A stretch of DNA of 64,000 bases, from NCBI RefSeq assembly GCF_000455125.1, contig NZ_AUWR01000018.1, positions 1-64,000 on the forward strand. The letters run 5' to 3'. The notes beneath the pieces are model-generated. The model was not told the origin of the DNA, made no database searches, and was given only the letters and a program-made list of their open reading frames with translations. The stretch is from Mycobacterium sp. UM_WGJ. GTDB taxonomy: Bacteria > Actinomycetota > Actinomycetes > Mycobacteriales > Mycobacteriaceae. Shown here piece after piece: positions 12,532-53,641 of this stretch (position 1 is the stretch's first letter; every line of letters begins with the position of its first letter). Made by a program: the position numbers and the translations under genes.

Positions 12532-13605
12532 TCAGTTCGGCGTGGTCAGCCGGCTTCCGAGGAAGTGCGGCAACCGAAACCGCCGAGGCGCATGCACGAC
12601 CGGCGTGTCCTGCGACGCTCCGCCGTTCTGGGCGGCGGTGTAGGCCGCGGAGTTACCGGTGACACGCAGCACCTGGCCCCGCCAGCTGATGTCGGCCTCC
12701 CGGTAGGCCTCCACCAGAGCCCGCTCCAGCAGTTCGTCGGCCTCGGCGATCGACAGCGCGGCCAACTCCACGAAGTCCCCATCGCGGGCATCGAGTTTGA
12801 GCGTGGTGGGGCCGGTTTCCACCAGGTCACAGTTGGCCCGGATGCTCAGTTCGGCGTTCGAACGCGCCAACCCGGCCAGCGCGTAGGCGGCCAGCAGGAC
12901 ACGGCCCGCCTCGTCGCCGGCCGGGCCGCAGTCGAAACGCAGCTGACGCAGCGCGGCGAAGCTGAGCACCTGGGTGCGAATAATCCGACTGCAGCACACT
13001 CCGCTGTCGGGCACCGCACGGGAATCCGCCGATACACCTTCGACGAGCACGCCGATGATCTCACCGGACAGCACTCCGCGGAAACGGCTTTGACCGGTGC
13101 CCAAAGCGGCGTCGATCGCACCGAAGATCAGACTGCCGGGGCTCAGTTCCAGCAGCGCGCGAGCGTTGTCCGGTGTGCTCTCGCGGGCCACGCGGTAGGC
13201 GGGGTGGGCGATCGCGGGCTTGCCGTCGATGGAGCCGGTGAGAAAGTGCCCGTCGAAAATGCGTTGCGGCAGTTCGAGATCGGTGTAGACCACCCGGCCG
13301 CCCTCGTAGGAGACCTCCATTCGCGGCACCCGGCTCAGCAGCGGATGCTGGGCGTGGATGCCTTGCAGGATCGCGGCTTCGACGCGCTGGACCTGGCTCT
13401 GGTTGTCATCGATGAGCACAGTGGCCGTCGGTTCCCCGTCGATCAGTCGGGTCTCGACCGCCGACGCTGAGCGCCCGGCACGGGGCGCCGGGCTGATCGC
13501 GGCGTGTGGTCCCCCAGCCGGCGCCAGCTCGGTGGACACCGTCAGGGTGCTGCCGCCGCCGGCCTGGCAGGCGGCCACCAGCTGTGGAAAGGAAAGTTTG
13601 GACAA
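12532..13605 (-). CDS. Csb1/Cas7-like (GSU0053 family) RAMP protein, orphan
   Basis: The 357-residue protein resembles Csb1 (Cas7u), the RNA-binding backbone subunit of type I-U/I-G CRISPR effectors. An early DNQSQVQRVEAAIL resembles the family's 'SQANRLEAAL' segment. A LELPQRIFDGHFL region is followed by SPGSLIFGAIDA and RFRGVLSGEIIGV, and the C-terminal half contains a hydrophobic LAAYALAGLA helix. The start is taken as TTG 13605, eight bases after GAAAGG and five bases from the CDF gene stop. Upstream codons in this frame lie inside the CDF gene. No other cas gene or repeat array is visible. The family call is pattern recognition from memory and needs a profile search. Confidence 0.65.
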   Translation of the reverse strand: MSKLSFPQLVAACQAGGGSTLTVSTELAPAGGPHAAISPAPRAGRSASAVETRLIDGEPTATVLIDDNQSQVQRVEAAILQGIHAQHPLLSRVPRMEVSYEGGRVVYTDLELPQRIFDGHFLTGSIDGKPAIAHPAYRVARESTPDNARALLELSPGSLIFGAIDAALGTGQSRFRGVLSGEIIGVLVEGVSADSRAVPDSGVCCSRIIRTQVLSFAALRQLRFDCGPAGDEAGRVLLAAYALAGLARSNAELSIRANCDLVETGPTTLKLDARDGDFVELAALSIAEADELLERALVEAYREADISWRGQVLRVTGNSAAYTAAQNGGASQDTPVVHAPRRFRLPHFLGSRLTTPN

Positions 13606-13610
13606 AGCGA

Positions 13611-14552
13611 TCAACCTTTCTGGTCCACCGAGTGTGGCACAGGCGTGCGGTCCAGATCCGGCTCGAGATAGATGACCAGCGCCGCGGGTACAGCCGCACG
13701 GATATTGGCTTCGGCGGCGTCGATGGTGGCCGCGACGCCGGCCAAATCGAGGCTGCGAACCACTGCGATCTTGGCCCCCACCAGCATCTCTTCCGGGCCC
13801 AGGTACTGGGTGCGGATGTGGATCAGCCGGGTGACGTTCTCGGTGCCCTCCAGCGCCGCGCGAATGGCCTGATCCTCGGCGGCGGTGGCGCCCTCGCCGA
13901 TCAGCAGGCTGTGCATCTCCACCATCAGGAATACGGCGACCACCCCCAGCAGCGCACTGATGCCCAGCGTTGCGACACCGTCCCACAACGGATTTCCGGT
14001 GACCGTGCTCAGTCCGACGCCGATCAGTGCCAGTGCCAGACCGATCAGCGCCGCGGTGTCCTCGAGCAGGACCACCGGCAGCTCCGGGTTGCGGGAGGTA
14101 CGCAAGAAGCGCCACCAGCTGGCCTCACCTTTGAGCGGGCGCGACTCGCGCAGCGCGGTGCGAAAACTGTAGGTCTCCAAGCCGATAGCCACCAGCAGGA
14201 TTGCGATCGCCACCACCGGCGAGCTCAGCTCGACCGGGTGACGCACCTTCTCGTAGCCCTCGTAGAGCGCGAACATCGAGCCCAGGCTGAACAGCACCAG
14301 CGCCACCACGAACGACCAGAAGTAGCGGCTGCGTCCGTGCCCGAAGGGATGCAGCGCGTCGGGTGCCTTGGCGGCCGCGCGCTGCCCGAACAGCAGCAGC
14401 GCCTGGTTGGAGGTGTCGACCACCGAGTGCACTGCCTCGGCGAGCATGGCGGCGCTACCGGTGATCAGGTAACCGGCGAACTTCGCCACCGCGATGCCGC
14501 CGTTGGCCGTCAAGGCCGCGATGATGGCCTTGGTGCTGCCCGAGGACGACAC
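13611..14552 (-). CDS. Cation diffusion facilitator (ZnT9-like)
   Basis: The 313-residue membrane transporter has the CDF signature AEAVHSVVDTSNQ, with the metal-binding His and Asp of helix II. The segment HPFGHGRSRYFWSFV is typical of the SLC30A9/ZnT9-like branch, and LLEDTAALIG supplies the helix V metal site. A short cytoplasmic domain follows. It should exchange Zn2+ or a similar cation for protons. The GTG start lies one base after the manA stop. It is closely followed by the Csb1-like gene, with which it is probably co-transcribed. Confidence 0.9.
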   Translation of the reverse strand: MSSSGSTKAIIAALTANGGIAVAKFAGYLITGSAAMLAEAVHSVVDTSNQALLLFGQRAAAKAPDALHPFGHGRSRYFWSFVVALVLFSLGSMFALYEGYEKVRHPVELSSPVVAIAILLVAIGLETYSFRTALRESRPLKGEASWWRFLRTSRNPELPVVLLEDTAALIGLALALIGVGLSTVTGNPLWDGVATLGISALLGVVAVFLMVEMHSLLIGEGATAAEDQAIRAALEGTENVTRLIHIRTQYLGPEEMLVGAKIAVVRSLDLAGVAATIDAAEANIRAAVPAALVIYLEPDLDRTPVPHSVDQKG

Positions 14553-14553
14553 T

Positions 14554-15807
14554 CTAGAGGCCTATCGTCGCCCGGAACAGGGCGGCCGGTTTTTGGGCGA
14601 GCAGCCGGATCGGCCCGTCGTCGCAGGGCACCCAGGCCGACTCGCCGCGGTGCAACGTCAGCGTCTTGGACTTGGCGTGCACGGTGATCACGCCCTCGGT
14701 GCACAGCAGAATCTGCGGACCGTCGTGGCGCGCGGGCGCGTCCACCTCGTGACCGAGGTGGCTGCCGTCGAGCGTCAGTCGCGACACCGCGAATTCCTCG
14801 GCGGGTGTCCGGTAGACCAGCTCGAGTCCCTCGGTATGGGTGGCCGGTCGCAGCGCCTCCTCCGTGGTGGGGGTGAAATCCAGCACCCGCAGCAGCTCGG
14901 GGACGTCGACGTGTTTGGGGGTCAGTCCGCCACGCAGCACGTTGTCGGAGTTGGCCATCACCTCCAGACCCACGCCATGCAGGTAGGTGTGCAGGTTTCC
15001 GGCCGAGACGAAGATGGCCTCTCCCGGCGCCAGGCTGATCCGGTTGAGCAGCAGCGAAGCCAGGACACCGGCATCCCCGGGATACCGCTCCCCCAGTTCG
15101 AGCACCGTCTTGGCCTCGGCAGAGAACTCGCCGGCCTCAGAACTGAGGTACTGGATGGCCCCTTCCAGCACCGCGGGCACCAACACGTCCAGATCAGGTT
15201 GGGGCGCGGTGATCCACGTGGTGAACAGCGCCCGCAGTCCATCGGCGTCGGACTGCACATCGGATTGACCGTTGCCGGTCTGGCCGCCGAGCAGGTCGAT
15301 GAACGGGTCCAGGTCGGATACGGCCAGCGCCCTCAGCAGCTCGATGGTGCGCGCCACCGGCCGGAATCCTGCCAGCGCCTCGAACGGCTGCAGCGCCACC
15401 AGAAGTTCGGGTTTGTGACTGGTGTCGCGGTAGTTGCGGATCGGCGAGGACACCGGGACCCCGAGCCGCTCCTCACGCTCGTAGCCCTCGATCGCCTGCA
15501 TGGCACTGGGGTGGGCCTGCAGCGACAGCGGCTCGTCGGCGGCCAGCACCTTGACCAGAAACGGCAGCCGGTCACCGAAGCGCGCCTGAGCCACCGGGCC
15601 CAGCTGGCCCTCCGGGTCGTGAGTCAGGACGTTGAGCAACGACACCTCGCCGGTGTCGGTCTCCAGGCAGGCCGGGTCCCCCGGGTGTGCCCCCAGCCAA
15701 AGCTCGGCTTCGGGATGCGCCGCCGGAACGGGCCGACCGGTGAACTCGGCGATAGCAGTCCTCGAGCCCCAGGCGTAGGTCCGTATCGCACCGCGTAGCT
15801 GTTCCAC
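14554..15807 (-). CDS. manA: Mannose-6-phosphate isomerase, class I
   Basis: The roughly 417-residue zinc enzyme interconverts fructose 6-phosphate and mannose 6-phosphate, feeding GDP-mannose for PIMs, lipoarabinomannan and mannosylated proteins. It shows the zinc-site motif LQAHPS, the later GNLHTY motif and the start RGAIRTYAWGSRTAI typical of mycobacterial ManA (Rv3255c). I prefer GTG 15807, which matches the M. tuberculosis N-terminus. A TTG at 15819 overlaps the stop of the preceding gene and would add four residues. Confidence 0.94.
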   Translation of the reverse strand: MEQLRGAIRTYAWGSRTAIAEFTGRPVPAAHPEAELWLGAHPGDPACLETDTGEVSLLNVLTHDPEGQLGPVAQARFGDRLPFLVKVLAADEPLSLQAHPSAMQAIEGYEREERLGVPVSSPIRNYRDTSHKPELLVALQPFEALAGFRPVARTIELLRALAVSDLDPFIDLLGGQTGNGQSDVQSDADGLRALFTTWITAPQPDLDVLVPAVLEGAIQYLSSEAGEFSAEAKTVLELGERYPGDAGVLASLLLNRISLAPGEAIFVSAGNLHTYLHGVGLEVMANSDNVLRGGLTPKHVDVPELLRVLDFTPTTEEALRPATHTEGLELVYRTPAEEFAVSRLTLDGSHLGHEVDAPARHDGPQILLCTEGVITVHAKSKTLTLHRGESAWVPCDDGPIRLLAQKPAALFRATIGL

Positions 15808-15815
15808 TGTTCCCG

Positions 15816-16952
15816 TCAACCCCGCAAAAGTCTCACGTAGGCGGCGGCCATCTCCAACCGCACGGCCAACACCGCAAGCTGCTGTTCGGCCCGGCCCGGA
15901 CCGCTCGGCGACAGCTCCCCCGCCGGCACAGTCAGGCTCGCGGCTTCCGCCGAGGCACCCGGTGCCACCGGCACATCCCCGGCTGCGATCAGATCGACGT
16001 CGTGCAGGCCGTTGATTCGGGCCGCCACCACGGTGCGTTCGGCGGCCAACGTCAGGGCCAGTACTCGCAGCCGTCCGGCGGCCGGTCCGTCGATCTGCTC
16101 GTCGTGAAAGATGTCGGAGACGTCGCGGCCACCGGCGGCCTGCGCCCGCAGCACGCTCACCGCGTCGGCCAGCCCGGCCGCCGCTACCGTGATCCGACCG
16201 ATCCGCAGCATCGCCGCGCTGCCGTGCCGAGCCAGCGCCAGGGTCGCCGCGCAGTCGCCGGCCAACGCGACCTCGCGGCCCACGATGCGGTCCGCCAGCA
16301 TCTTCGCCGGGTTGGTGAACAGCTCACGCGCGGCACTGTTGCGCAGCGCCTCGGCGTCGAGCTCGTCGGCCAGCACGGCCAAGTCGGTCGGTGCGGCCGC
16401 ACCCTCCAGGGCATCCATGATGGCCAGCCCGGCGGCCAGGTAGCGCGGCAGACCGAACTCCGCCGAGACGGCGATCCGCGGTTCCAGCACGGCGACCCGG
16501 CCGGCGGTGGCGTCGCGCAGCGGCCCTTCGTAGGGCGCGACCACCACGACTCGCGCGCCGCGACGTACCCCGGCCGCGGCCGCGGCGACCAGCGCGGGAT
16601 CGCCCGGATCGTCGCCGGCAACGATCAGGGCGTCCAGCGATCCGATCCAGGACGGGGCCTCGGCGGCCAGCACCAGCGGTGCCCGCGCCGACTCGCCGCG
16701 GGTAGCGGCCAGCAGGCTCCCTGCCGTGGCCGCGGTGCCGCGGGTGGACAGCCAGATGATCGTCCGCGGCGGGTAGTCACGGCTCTCGCTGCGCACGGCA
16801 TCCAGGGCACCCTCATCGACCGTCGCGGCGGTAGCGCGCACCTGTGCGCCGGCCATCGATGCGGCCCACAGTGCGCCGTCACGGTCAGCCGCCAGCAGGG
16901 CCTCGGTGTCATCGAGGTCGACGGTGGAGAAGGAGCCGGAGAACGCGGTCAC
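15816..16952 (-). CDS. Phosphosugar isomerase-like protein (Rv3256c family)
   Basis: The 378-residue Ala-rich protein is the counterpart of M. tuberculosis Rv3256c, always found between pmmA and manA. It has a SIS-like Rossmann layout: IIWLSTRG after the first helix, VVVVAPY and a C-terminal helical domain resembling the C-terminal domain of bifunctional glucose/mannose-phosphate isomerases (TobH-like). Its exact reaction is not established. Context implies a role in mannose-phosphate metabolism. The GTG start overlaps the pmmA stop (GTGA), and its own stop touches manA. Confidence 0.8.
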   Translation of the reverse strand: MTAFSGSFSTVDLDDTEALLAADRDGALWAASMAGAQVRATAATVDEGALDAVRSESRDYPPRTIIWLSTRGTAATAGSLLAATRGESARAPLVLAAEAPSWIGSLDALIVAGDDPGDPALVAAAAAGVRRGARVVVVAPYEGPLRDATAGRVAVLEPRIAVSAEFGLPRYLAAGLAIMDALEGAAAPTDLAVLADELDAEALRNSAARELFTNPAKMLADRIVGREVALAGDCAATLALARHGSAAMLRIGRITVAAAGLADAVSVLRAQAAGGRDVSDIFHDEQIDGPAAGRLRVLALTLAAERTVVAARINGLHDVDLIAAGDVPVAPGASAEAASLTVPAGELSPSGPGRAEQQLAVLAVRLEMAAAYVRLLRG

Positions 16953-18346
16953 GGACGCGACTTCTCCGCAGCGGTGATCTGTTCGGAGACTTGGGCCACC
17001 ACCGCGTCCACCGCGGCGGCGTCGGGCGCCTCGACGTTGAGCCGCAACAGCGGCTCGGTGTTGGAGCTGCGCAGGTTGAACCAGCTGCCCGAACCCAGCT
17101 CGACGGTCACGCCGTCGAGGTGGTCCACCGACGACACCTGGTCACCGAACGACCCGACCACCGCGTCCACGCAGGCCTGCGCATCGGAGACGGTGAAGTT
17201 GATCTCGCCGGACGCCGCGTAGCGCTGGTAGTCGGCGGTCAGCTCCGACAACGGCCGCTGCTGTTCGCCGAGCGCGGCCAGTACGTGCAGGGCCGCCAGC
17301 ATGCCCGAGTCGGCGCCCCAGAATTCCCGGAAGTAGTAGTGCGCCGAGTGCTCCCCGCCGAAGATGGCCCCGGTCTCGGCCATCAGCGCCTTGATGTAGG
17401 AGTGTCCGACCCGCGACCGCAGCGGGGTGCCGCCGCGCTCGCTGACCAGTTCGGGCACGGCATGCGAGGTGATCAGGTTGTGGATCACCGTCGCACCGGG
17501 CTCGCGGGCCAATTCACGGGCCGCGACCAGGCCGGTCACCGCCGATGGCGACACCGGCTCGCCGCGCTCGTCGACCACGAAGCACCGGTCGGCGTCGCCG
17601 TCGAAGGCCAGTCCGATGTCGGCGCCGCTCTCGCGCACGAACGTCTGCAGATCAACGAGGTTGGCCGGATCCAGCGGGTTGGCCTCGTGGTTGGGAAAGT
17701 TGCCGTCCAACTCGAAGTACAGCGGCAGCAGTGTGATACCCCCGACCGAGCCGAACACCGCCGGGGCGGTGTGGCCGGCCATCCCGTTGCCGGCGTCGAC
17801 GGCCACACGCAGCGGCCGCAGGCCGGAGATGTCGACCAGCGAGTGCAGGAATGCCGCATAGTCGGCGAGCACGTCACGGTCGGTGATGCTGCCGCGCGAT
17901 TCTTGGCCGTCGCCAGCCGGATCGACGCCGGCGATCAGCTCATCGCGGATCCGGCCCAGGCCGCTGTCAGCGCCCACCGGCTTGGCACCGGCCCGGCAGA
18001 GCTTGATGCCGTTGTAGGCCGCCGGGTTATGGCTGGCAGTGAACATCGCACCCGGGCAGTCCAGCGCCCCGGAGGCGAAATAGAGCTGGTCGGTCGACGC
18101 CAGCCCGATCCGGACCACATCCAGGCCGCGGGCGATCACGCCTTCGGCGAACGCCGCAGACAGCAGTGGCGAACTGTCCCGCATGTCGTGGCCGATCACC
18201 ACTTGGTGGGCGCCTTCCTCGGCCATCAGCCGGGCAAACGAGGACCCGACCTCAGTGACGAGGGATTCATCGATCTCCGAACCGACCAGGCCGCGTACGT
18301 CGTACGCCTTGATCACACGGTGGACAGCCGCAGCGGGCCGAGACAT
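16949..18346 (-). CDS. pmmA: Phosphomannomutase
   Basis: The 465-residue alpha-D-phosphohexomutase converts mannose 6-phosphate to mannose 1-phosphate. The phosphoserine loop FTASHNPAAYNGIK, the Mg-binding loop AFDGDADRC, the sugar-binding GGEHSAHYY and the phosphate-binding RSSNTEPLLR are all present and in order. Start ATG 18346 has AGGAG about eight bases upstream. It corresponds to M. tuberculosis Rv3257c (also called manB in other species) and heads the pmmA-Rv3256c-manA set. Confidence 0.95.
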   Translation of the reverse strand: MSRPAAAVHRVIKAYDVRGLVGSEIDESLVTEVGSSFARLMAEEGAHQVVIGHDMRDSSPLLSAAFAEGVIARGLDVVRIGLASTDQLYFASGALDCPGAMFTASHNPAAYNGIKLCRAGAKPVGADSGLGRIRDELIAGVDPAGDGQESRGSITDRDVLADYAAFLHSLVDISGLRPLRVAVDAGNGMAGHTAPAVFGSVGGITLLPLYFELDGNFPNHEANPLDPANLVDLQTFVRESGADIGLAFDGDADRCFVVDERGEPVSPSAVTGLVAARELAREPGATVIHNLITSHAVPELVSERGGTPLRSRVGHSYIKALMAETGAIFGGEHSAHYYFREFWGADSGMLAALHVLAALGEQQRPLSELTADYQRYAASGEINFTVSDAQACVDAVVGSFGDQVSSVDHLDGVTVELGSGSWFNLRSSNTEPLLRLNVEAPDAAAVDAVVAQVSEQITAAEKSRP

Positions 18347-18404
18347 GGACAGGGCTCCTGACGCAGTGGACTCTTGACGCTCAAGCCTAGCCCGGAACCC
18401 GCGA

Positions 18405-18845
18405 TCAGTCCGAAGGGTCTGGCAACACACGCAGGTGGCCACGACGCCGGCCATTGGTCTTGCCCGGTGCCCCGGGCGGTGCCAGCACACCACCACCGGG
18501 TCCGGCGGTGGGCGCTCCGCGGGTCGGGGAGTCGATCGGATTGGCCTGGGGGTACCACCCGTTTGCCGGGGCCGCCCGCCCGGATTCGCGCTCGCGAACC
18601 GCCTCGGCAAGCGCGATCAGATCATCCTCTTCAGGCGATACCCACGGGCCGGGGTGGCGGACCAGTTCCCAACCGCGCGGGGCGGTGATCCGGCCTGCGT
18701 GACTGAAGCACAAGTCCCAGGAATGCGGTTCAGCGGCAGTCGCCAGCGGGCCGACCACGGCGGTGGAGTCCGAGTAGACGAACGTCAGCGTCGCCACCGC
18801 ATAGTGCGGACACCCTGGCCGGCAGCAACGGCGGGGAACGTTCAC
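18405..18845 (-). CDS. DUF3499 protein (Rv3258c family)
   Basis: The 146-residue actinobacterial conserved protein starts VNVPRRCCRPGCPHYA. The closely spaced Cys residues and a later CFSH suggest a small zinc-binding fold. A Gly/Pro-rich tail follows. GTG 18845 is chosen because the Cys-rich motif begins the family consensus. It lies upstream of pmmA in the same direction and is conserved there in mycobacteria. Its function is unknown. Confidence 0.85.
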   Translation of the reverse strand: MNVPRRCCRPGCPHYAVATLTFVYSDSTAVVGPLATAAEPHSWDLCFSHAGRITAPRGWELVRHPGPWVSPEEDDLIALAEAVRERESGRAAPANGWYPQANPIDSPTRGAPTAGPGGGVLAPPGAPGKTNGRRRGHLRVLPDPSD

Positions 18846-46699: not shown

Positions 46700-48611
<1,912 letters not shown>

Positions 48612-53510: not shown

Positions 53511-53640
53511 CCGCCGCGCTCGCAGTCGCCGCTGCGCTGATGGCGGCGACCTTCTTCACCCGGCTCCGCCGCGCTCGCAGTCGCCGCTGCGCTGATGGCG
53601 GCGACCTGCATCACCCGGCTCCGCCGCGCTCGCAGTCGCC
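53511..53640. repeat. 55-bp tandem repeat with hairpin unit
   Basis: Two full 55-base units (53511-53565, 53566-53620) and a 20-base partial third occupy the space between the UsfY-like start and the oxidoreductase stop. They differ at only two or three bases (CTTCTTC versus CTGCATC). Each full unit contains GTCGCCGC and GCGGCGAC arms around a 10-base loop, so each can form a hairpin. The length is not a multiple of three, so no frame is kept. It resembles MIRU/VNTR loci. Confidence 0.85.
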
Positions 53641-53641
53641 G

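Follow-up and report, generated by a model that had tools for sequence, protein, structure and literature searches.

An orphan csb1/cas7g-derived gene retained beside a metal-transporter gene across the Mycolicibacter clade

Why should a gene of the Csb1 (Cas7) family stand by itself at the end of a metabolic operon, and what has kept it there? Such a gene lies in the 64,000-nucleotide stretch of Mycobacterium sp. UM_WGJ that we analysed, here called the window, directly behind the gene for a cation diffusion facilitator (CDF) transporter. An earlier note made from the sequence had given its position and strand correctly (Table 1), and had left it undecided between a protein recruited for a new role and the remnant of a lost CRISPR system.

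Table 1 Features of the csb1 locus and of the operon that precedes it, in window coordinates.
Feature	Position	Strand	Evidence or remark
Orphan csb1/cas7g-derived gene	12532..13605	minus	357 aa, TTG start
PF09617 (Cas_GSU0053) domain	13042..13545	minus	profile match
Short loop, residues 188–204, at the place of the GGARxDP...LGxGxPP module of I-G Cas7	12994..13044	minus	module absent
Lineage-specific C-terminal tail, residues 319–357	12535..12651	minus	38–40 aa after N318 in 19 orphans
FRLPHF motif in tail	12562..12579	minus	FR.PHF in 19/19 orphans, 0/33 I-G Csb1
GAAAGG, likely ribosome-binding site, within the end of the CDF gene	13615..13620	minus	22/22 orthologues
CDF gene, directly upstream of csb1	13611..14552	minus	PF01545 1.2e-39; adjoins csb1 at 22/22 and 18/18 loci
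manA, mannose-6-phosphate isomerase	14554..15819	minus	PF20511 1.1e-26
Conserved operon gene (presumably TobH)	15816..16952	minus	Pfam: no family; match in 392/396 genus genomes
manB-like phosphomannomutase/phosphoglucomutase	16949..18610	minus	PF02878, PF02879, PF02880, PF00408; synteny

A csb1 gene and its missing partners

The orphan protein scores 133 bits against PF09617, far above chance and above the cut-off of 25, and matches the PADLOC Cas7g profile at 5.2e-31. Of the two profile comparisons that the earlier note had proposed, PF09617 thus gave a clear match and the NCBIfam equivalog domain TIGR02570 did not, as the orphan reaches 32.8 bits, under the cut-off of 38, compared with 53.5 bits for the type I-G relative L101 from an actinobacterial metagenome-assembled genome. 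The motifs it had pointed out are present as SQVQRVEAA, SPGSLIFG and GEIIGV, and structure prediction supports an RRM-type Cas7 palm fold. The proposed homology to Csb1 is therefore upheld; its extension over the whole length of the protein is not, with a central module absent and a C-terminal tail new. A search of the PDB by sequence returned nothing for P0001 or L123 and only a chance match for A2.

The claim that no CRISPR locus accompanies the gene also withstood a search of the window and, for four Cas families, of the genome. Two short tandem repeats were all that a simple array finder reported in the window, an Rfam search gave nothing, and no Cas family was found in Pfam among the neighbours scanned. 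Both repeats were rejected as arrays, the one at 48397-48575 being a tandem repeat with a 63-bp unit in 2.8 near-perfect copies and the one at 53511-53641 a G+C-rich tandem repeat with a 55-bp unit in 2.4 copies. The genome-wide search of UM_WGJ covered PF09617, Cas1, I-G Csb2 and I-G Cas3. It showed a single PF09617 place, no Cas1 (control positive in 9 of 14 genomes) and neither I-G Csb2 nor I-G Cas3, for both of which the positive controls were matched, so that the search for csb2 and cas3 in the remaining genome, likewise suggested earlier, was negative. The TIGR02165 profile for Csb2 also found nothing in this genome, its control being silent everywhere.

Query proteins for Csb2 and Cas3 were taken from L101, a profile-confirmed csb1-csb2-cas3g-cas8g-cas4/1-cas2 locus. 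Besides its Csb1, the Csb2 (TIGR02165, 264.6 bits), Cas3g (TIGR02621, 667.1 bits), Cas1 (TIGR00287, 227.7 bits) and Cas2 (TIGR01573, 43.4 bits) all score over their cut-offs, and Cas8g is matched by PADLOC at 1.4e-93. We scanned 26 genomes, made up of the 22 that carry the orphan and four controls with I-G loci. Cas1 was detected in four genomes (G181 and three controls, the control G124 being without it), I-G Csb2 in five (G181 and 4/4 controls) and I-G Cas3 in six (G181, 4/4 controls and, at 22 bits, G332). Neither Cas1 nor I-G Csb2 was thus matched in 21 of the 22 genomes with the orphan, a warning that a match to csb1 by itself does little to establish a type I-U/I-G system. No I-G Cas3 match at all was obtained in 20 of the 22. 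The weak Cas3-like match in G332 (G332:C52:62835-63221, E 4.5e-5) lies in a 2140-aa frame and is probably another helicase.

The only complete I-G system among the 22 orphan-bearing genomes is that of M. longobardus (G181; L118/L043), where it lies elsewhere in the genome and includes an array-like run of repeats. An orphan csb1 and a type I-G locus can therefore coexist.

Conservation and inheritance behind the CDF gene

Coupling of the gene to the CDF transporter downstream of manA, as the earlier note had described it, is borne out by a csb1 start only 5 nt past the CDF stop codon. The first codon is TTG in 20 of the 22 orthologues and GTG in two, and in all 22 the GAAAGG motif stands 9 nt 5' of this start; the short spacing together with a conserved GAAAGG that overlaps the last part of the CDF gene suggests that csb1 is made in step with the transporter. 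Upstream of the CDF gene, the operon continues with manA, a gene that we take to be TobH and the manB-like gene, whose true start is likely internal.

Within the genus, PF09617 occurs in 35 of 396 genomes at 37 places. Directly behind CDF and manA are 22 of these places, among the 30 listed as loci; of the remaining 15, fourteen are accompanied in the surrounding sequence by a member of the similarity cluster to which the cas3 of L033 and L039 belongs, and the fifteenth (G165) ends at a contig edge. The CDF gene itself is common in the genus; its 22 best matches (at least 80%) single out the 22 csb1-bearing genomes and no others, with the following match at 78%. Similarly, the top 21 TobH matches (at least 79%) are all from csb1-bearing genomes and the next is at 73%; the 22nd csb1-bearing genome, G086, has two weaker TobH matches. 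Because both splits coincide with the presence of csb1, the clade that they mark is, as sampled, fully csb1-bearing (22/22), and no sampled genome of the 396 outside the clade has csb1 at the manA-CDF place.

The same picture was obtained from GTDB contigs, among which 53 loci were confirmed, 18 of them named Mycolicibacter loci at the manA-CDF place and 35 others. These 18 overlap with the 22 genomes above, so that the two counts are not independent, and they do not cover species such as M. terrae, M. hiberniae, M. minnesotensis and M. virginiensis, which were absent from the GTDB results. TobH, manA and CDF occur in order at 18/18 named loci and manB at 17/18, the contig of the remaining one (L082) starting inside TobH. 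Within at most 8 kb on each side, csb2, cas3, cas8g and cas1/cas2 were found at 0/18 of these loci, and no array-like run was seen at any of them. By contrast, csb2 and cas3 stand beside csb1 in 32 of the other 35 loci; the exceptions are L106, which has a csb2 fragment only, and L100 and L111, which end at contig edges. The suggestion that conservation be checked at the same place in related mycobacteria therefore received a positive answer in 22/22 clade genomes and at the 18 named loci.

In the outgroups, all 11 stretches have manB-TobH-manA-CDF and are without csb1. In M. acidiphilus, whose orphan branches off deepest in the tree, the CDF gene and the desaturase gene flank csb1. Two outgroups read closely have an amino-acid permease gene (PF13520) on the csb1 side of CDF, directly beside it in one (L056, 6246-7850) and beyond an opposite-strand frame next to it in the other (L062, 2683-4176).

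The reading frame is intact in 22/22 orthologues, and 191 of 361 alignment columns are invariant. The median dN/dS of csb1 (Nei-Gojobori, own script, 231 pairs) is 0.196, compared with 0.182 for the neighbouring CDF gene and 0.136 for the manA part. Distances between csb1 sequences correlate with those of CDF (Mantel r 0.58) and manA (0.67), with 0/999 permutations as high; CDF and manA follow each other more tightly (r = 0.84) than csb1 follows either, so some transfer within the clade or a change of rate is possible. The gene is under purifying selection, has been inherited largely vertically and is not debris.

A maximum-likelihood tree of 54 Csb1 proteins places the orphans in one clade (100/100) inside the actinobacterial I-G Csb1, on a stem of 0.84. 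At a fork supported by 96/90, this clade joins L100 (M. helveticum), G105, L103 (Nocardia) and L101. Identity to the orphan is 51-56% for L101, L103 and G105, all three of which are accompanied by csb2 and cas3, L100 being cut at a contig end. The nearest relative of the UM_WGJ gene is that of M. heraklionensis strain 1211594.5 (L073). Such a long stem, with only short branches after it, fits a shift in function that gave way to stasis.

Departures from type I-G Cas7

Comparison with I-G proteins shows a large difference between the GEIIG and VLSFAALRQ motifs, a segment of 26-27 aa in the 19 orphans. In 33 relatives (including L111, which ends at a contig edge) it is 82-102 aa long, and in two gammaproteobacterial ones 62 aa. 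The second motif of the missing module, GxGxxPP, is present in 31/33 I-G proteins and 0/19 orphans, and even distant mycobacterial I-G Csb1s retain recognisable pieces of the module. In a scan of 331 family genomes, seven strong non-orphan matches were split in two at the module place, which fits what is expected if the module is kept; five more genomes gave weak partial matches only (E 5.7e-9 to 4.7e-4).

In a structural model of L101 (pLDDT 85.0), the module takes up residues 190-267, with core strands at 181-189 and 269-279 on either side, and consists of two helices and low-confidence stretches, with no clear hairpin. The equivalent core strands of the orphan model are residues 179-187 and 205-215. 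From Cas7 anatomy, the missing module presumably sits at the thumb position, and its place between two core strands suggests that the deleted segment would be the thumb. Through the thumb insertion, adjacent Cas7 subunits lock into each other and bend the crRNA into a kink. For the I-G effector, the crRNA is described as kinked at every sixth base by a β hairpin from the adjacent Cas7 (PMC9638904). The missing thumb-position module speaks against a role as a Cascade-like backbone.

Substitutions accompany the deletion. Among 111 columns that are at least 85% conserved in both 29 I-G and 19 orphan proteins, 98 agree between the two sets and 13 do not, the latter including K68N, N73Q, H114Q, R122L, W164I and H212Q. 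Of 18 K, R or H positions conserved in I-G proteins, 12 are kept by 19/19 orphans and five are lost, and R168 is kept by 11/19; invariant in all 19 are R53, R74, R115, R141, R174, R210, R220, R223, R235, R248, R256 and R274. The orphan protein is net acidic, with 33 K+R against 39 D+E, as are five I-G Csb1s that were counted likewise. At the other end of the protein, the 33 I-G Csb1s have only 12-19 aa past the position of N318, clearly shorter than the orphan tail (Table 1), of which residues 329-357 have pLDDT below 50 and are predicted to be disordered.

A probable exaptation and its alternatives

Taken together, we consider it probable that a Cas7 was exapted once as a non-polymerising and probably RNA-binding protein that is co-made with a metal transporter. 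One type I-G cas7 (csb1) would have been captured a single time, in the ancestor of the Mycolicibacter clade, behind the CDF gene of a manB-TobH-manA operon, and would there have become a housekeeping gene. It would have retained the palm (RRM-type) core and most conserved arginines, lost the thumb-position insertion, changed several conserved K, R and H residues and gained a conserved tail; given this loss, these changes and the new tail, the protein most likely no longer polymerises along crRNA. Acting alone or as a small oligomer, it may bind cellular RNA through its palm and would be synthesised along with the metal transporter and the operon enzymes, with the FRLPHF tail holding a partner and thus adjusting the expression or assembly of operon products. 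We infer the loss of filament formation, the RNA binding, the partner binding and the regulatory role from the features described above, and a tie of the orphan to mannose or metal metabolism is suggested by synteny. Recruitment, which the earlier note had considered, is favoured by fixation throughout the clade, by purifying selection and by derived changes that the orphans share. We are more doubtful about a stronger version, in which the lone Cas7 is a housekeeping RNA-binding protein, either guide-free or host-RNA-guided and non-polymerising, that controls an envelope-precursor and metal-transport operon genus-wide, and would be the first such case; we put it forward tentatively.

Less probably, nucleic-acid binding may have been lost altogether, leaving a protein that serves as a scaffold or that partners the CDF transporter, as the loss of conserved basic residues, the new conserved tail and the constant CDF adjacency would allow; the invariance of 12 arginines (R53 to R274) in 19/19 orphans speaks against this. 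The palm core and the 12 of 18 conserved K, R and H positions that all orphans retain could also mean that a CRISPR-like complex persists with small RNAs, using host-transcript guides and other partners; the dev operon, where Cas5-7-8 use an antisense RNA (PMC8730458), is a precedent. With I-G Csb2 absent from 21 of 22 genomes and the thumb-position module gone, we regard such a complex as improbable. There is also little likelihood that the orphan acts by itself as a minimal defence against phages or plasmids, for example by binding invader RNA: its fold is of a defence protein's type, but the gene is fixed at one place of a metabolic operon throughout the sampled clade and largely vertical, no relative was found in IMG/VR or phage records, and the search of plasmids yielded 13 weakly matching records, seven annotated as type I-U cas7 and six as hypothetical.

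Other Cas7 homologues outside adaptive immunity have been described, namely the myxobacterial dev operon, HRAMP/ARAMP and a Streptomyces I-E derivative with a STAND NTPase (PMC8730458). In these, as described there, Cas7 occurs with Cas5 and further proteins, whereas the orphan is a single Cas7 for which no Cas partner was found. Isolated cas loci likewise have cas genes without a nearby array, but are defined by at least three cas genes (PMC5294841), in contrast to the one clade-fixed gene here. From type I-G Cas7 (Csb1/Cas7g, formerly I-U), as known from Thioalkalivibrio sulfidiphilus (8ANE), the orphan differs in lacking I-G cas neighbours and the thumb-position module, and in its 13 changed columns, extra tail and metabolic operon. 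The closest proteins in the tree, the mycobacterial and nocardial I-G Csb1s (L100, L101, L103 and G105), retain the module that the orphans are without.

Mycobacterial surveys describe full loci or orphan arrays (PMC10333696, PMC7820667). Full I-G loci are described in the former; in the latter, 141 Mycobacteriaceae genomes were surveyed with 395 Cas profiles, and its main text does not mention csb1 or cas7. The main text of PMC12669027 contains no mention of I-G, Csb1 or "mycobacteri". Literature searches listed no paper on a solitary csb1 in Mycolicibacter. The orphan csb1 appears to be a CRISPR exaptation in single-subunit form. One Cas7 subunit, without partners or a thumb-position segment, has been kept by selection across a whole clade, raising the testable question of what the Cas7 RRM core is capable of by itself.

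That the gene is just what decay has left of a former type I-G CRISPR locus, the other outcome considered earlier, is hardly credible, as the intact frames, low dN/dS and invariant columns, the lack of I-G cas matches at all 18 named loci and the constant csb1-CDF junction outweigh its descent from mycobacterial and Nocardia I-G csb1 genes and the existence of a decaying locus elsewhere. The latter, in Pseudonocardia sp. MH-G8 (L106, 7992-9792), has an open csb1 that includes the module, a csb2 reduced to a fragment and, around csb1, frames that read as transposase-like, a label given from the frames and not from a profile; it shows an I-G locus in decay, in contrast to the orphan csb1.

Two further observations concern I-G loci proper. 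One genome (G091) carries two I-G type loci that differ from each other and lie on separate contigs (L035 and L039), and in the I-G locus of Nocardia camponoti (L091), cas1-cas2 lie on the strand opposite csb1-csb2-cas3-cas8g.
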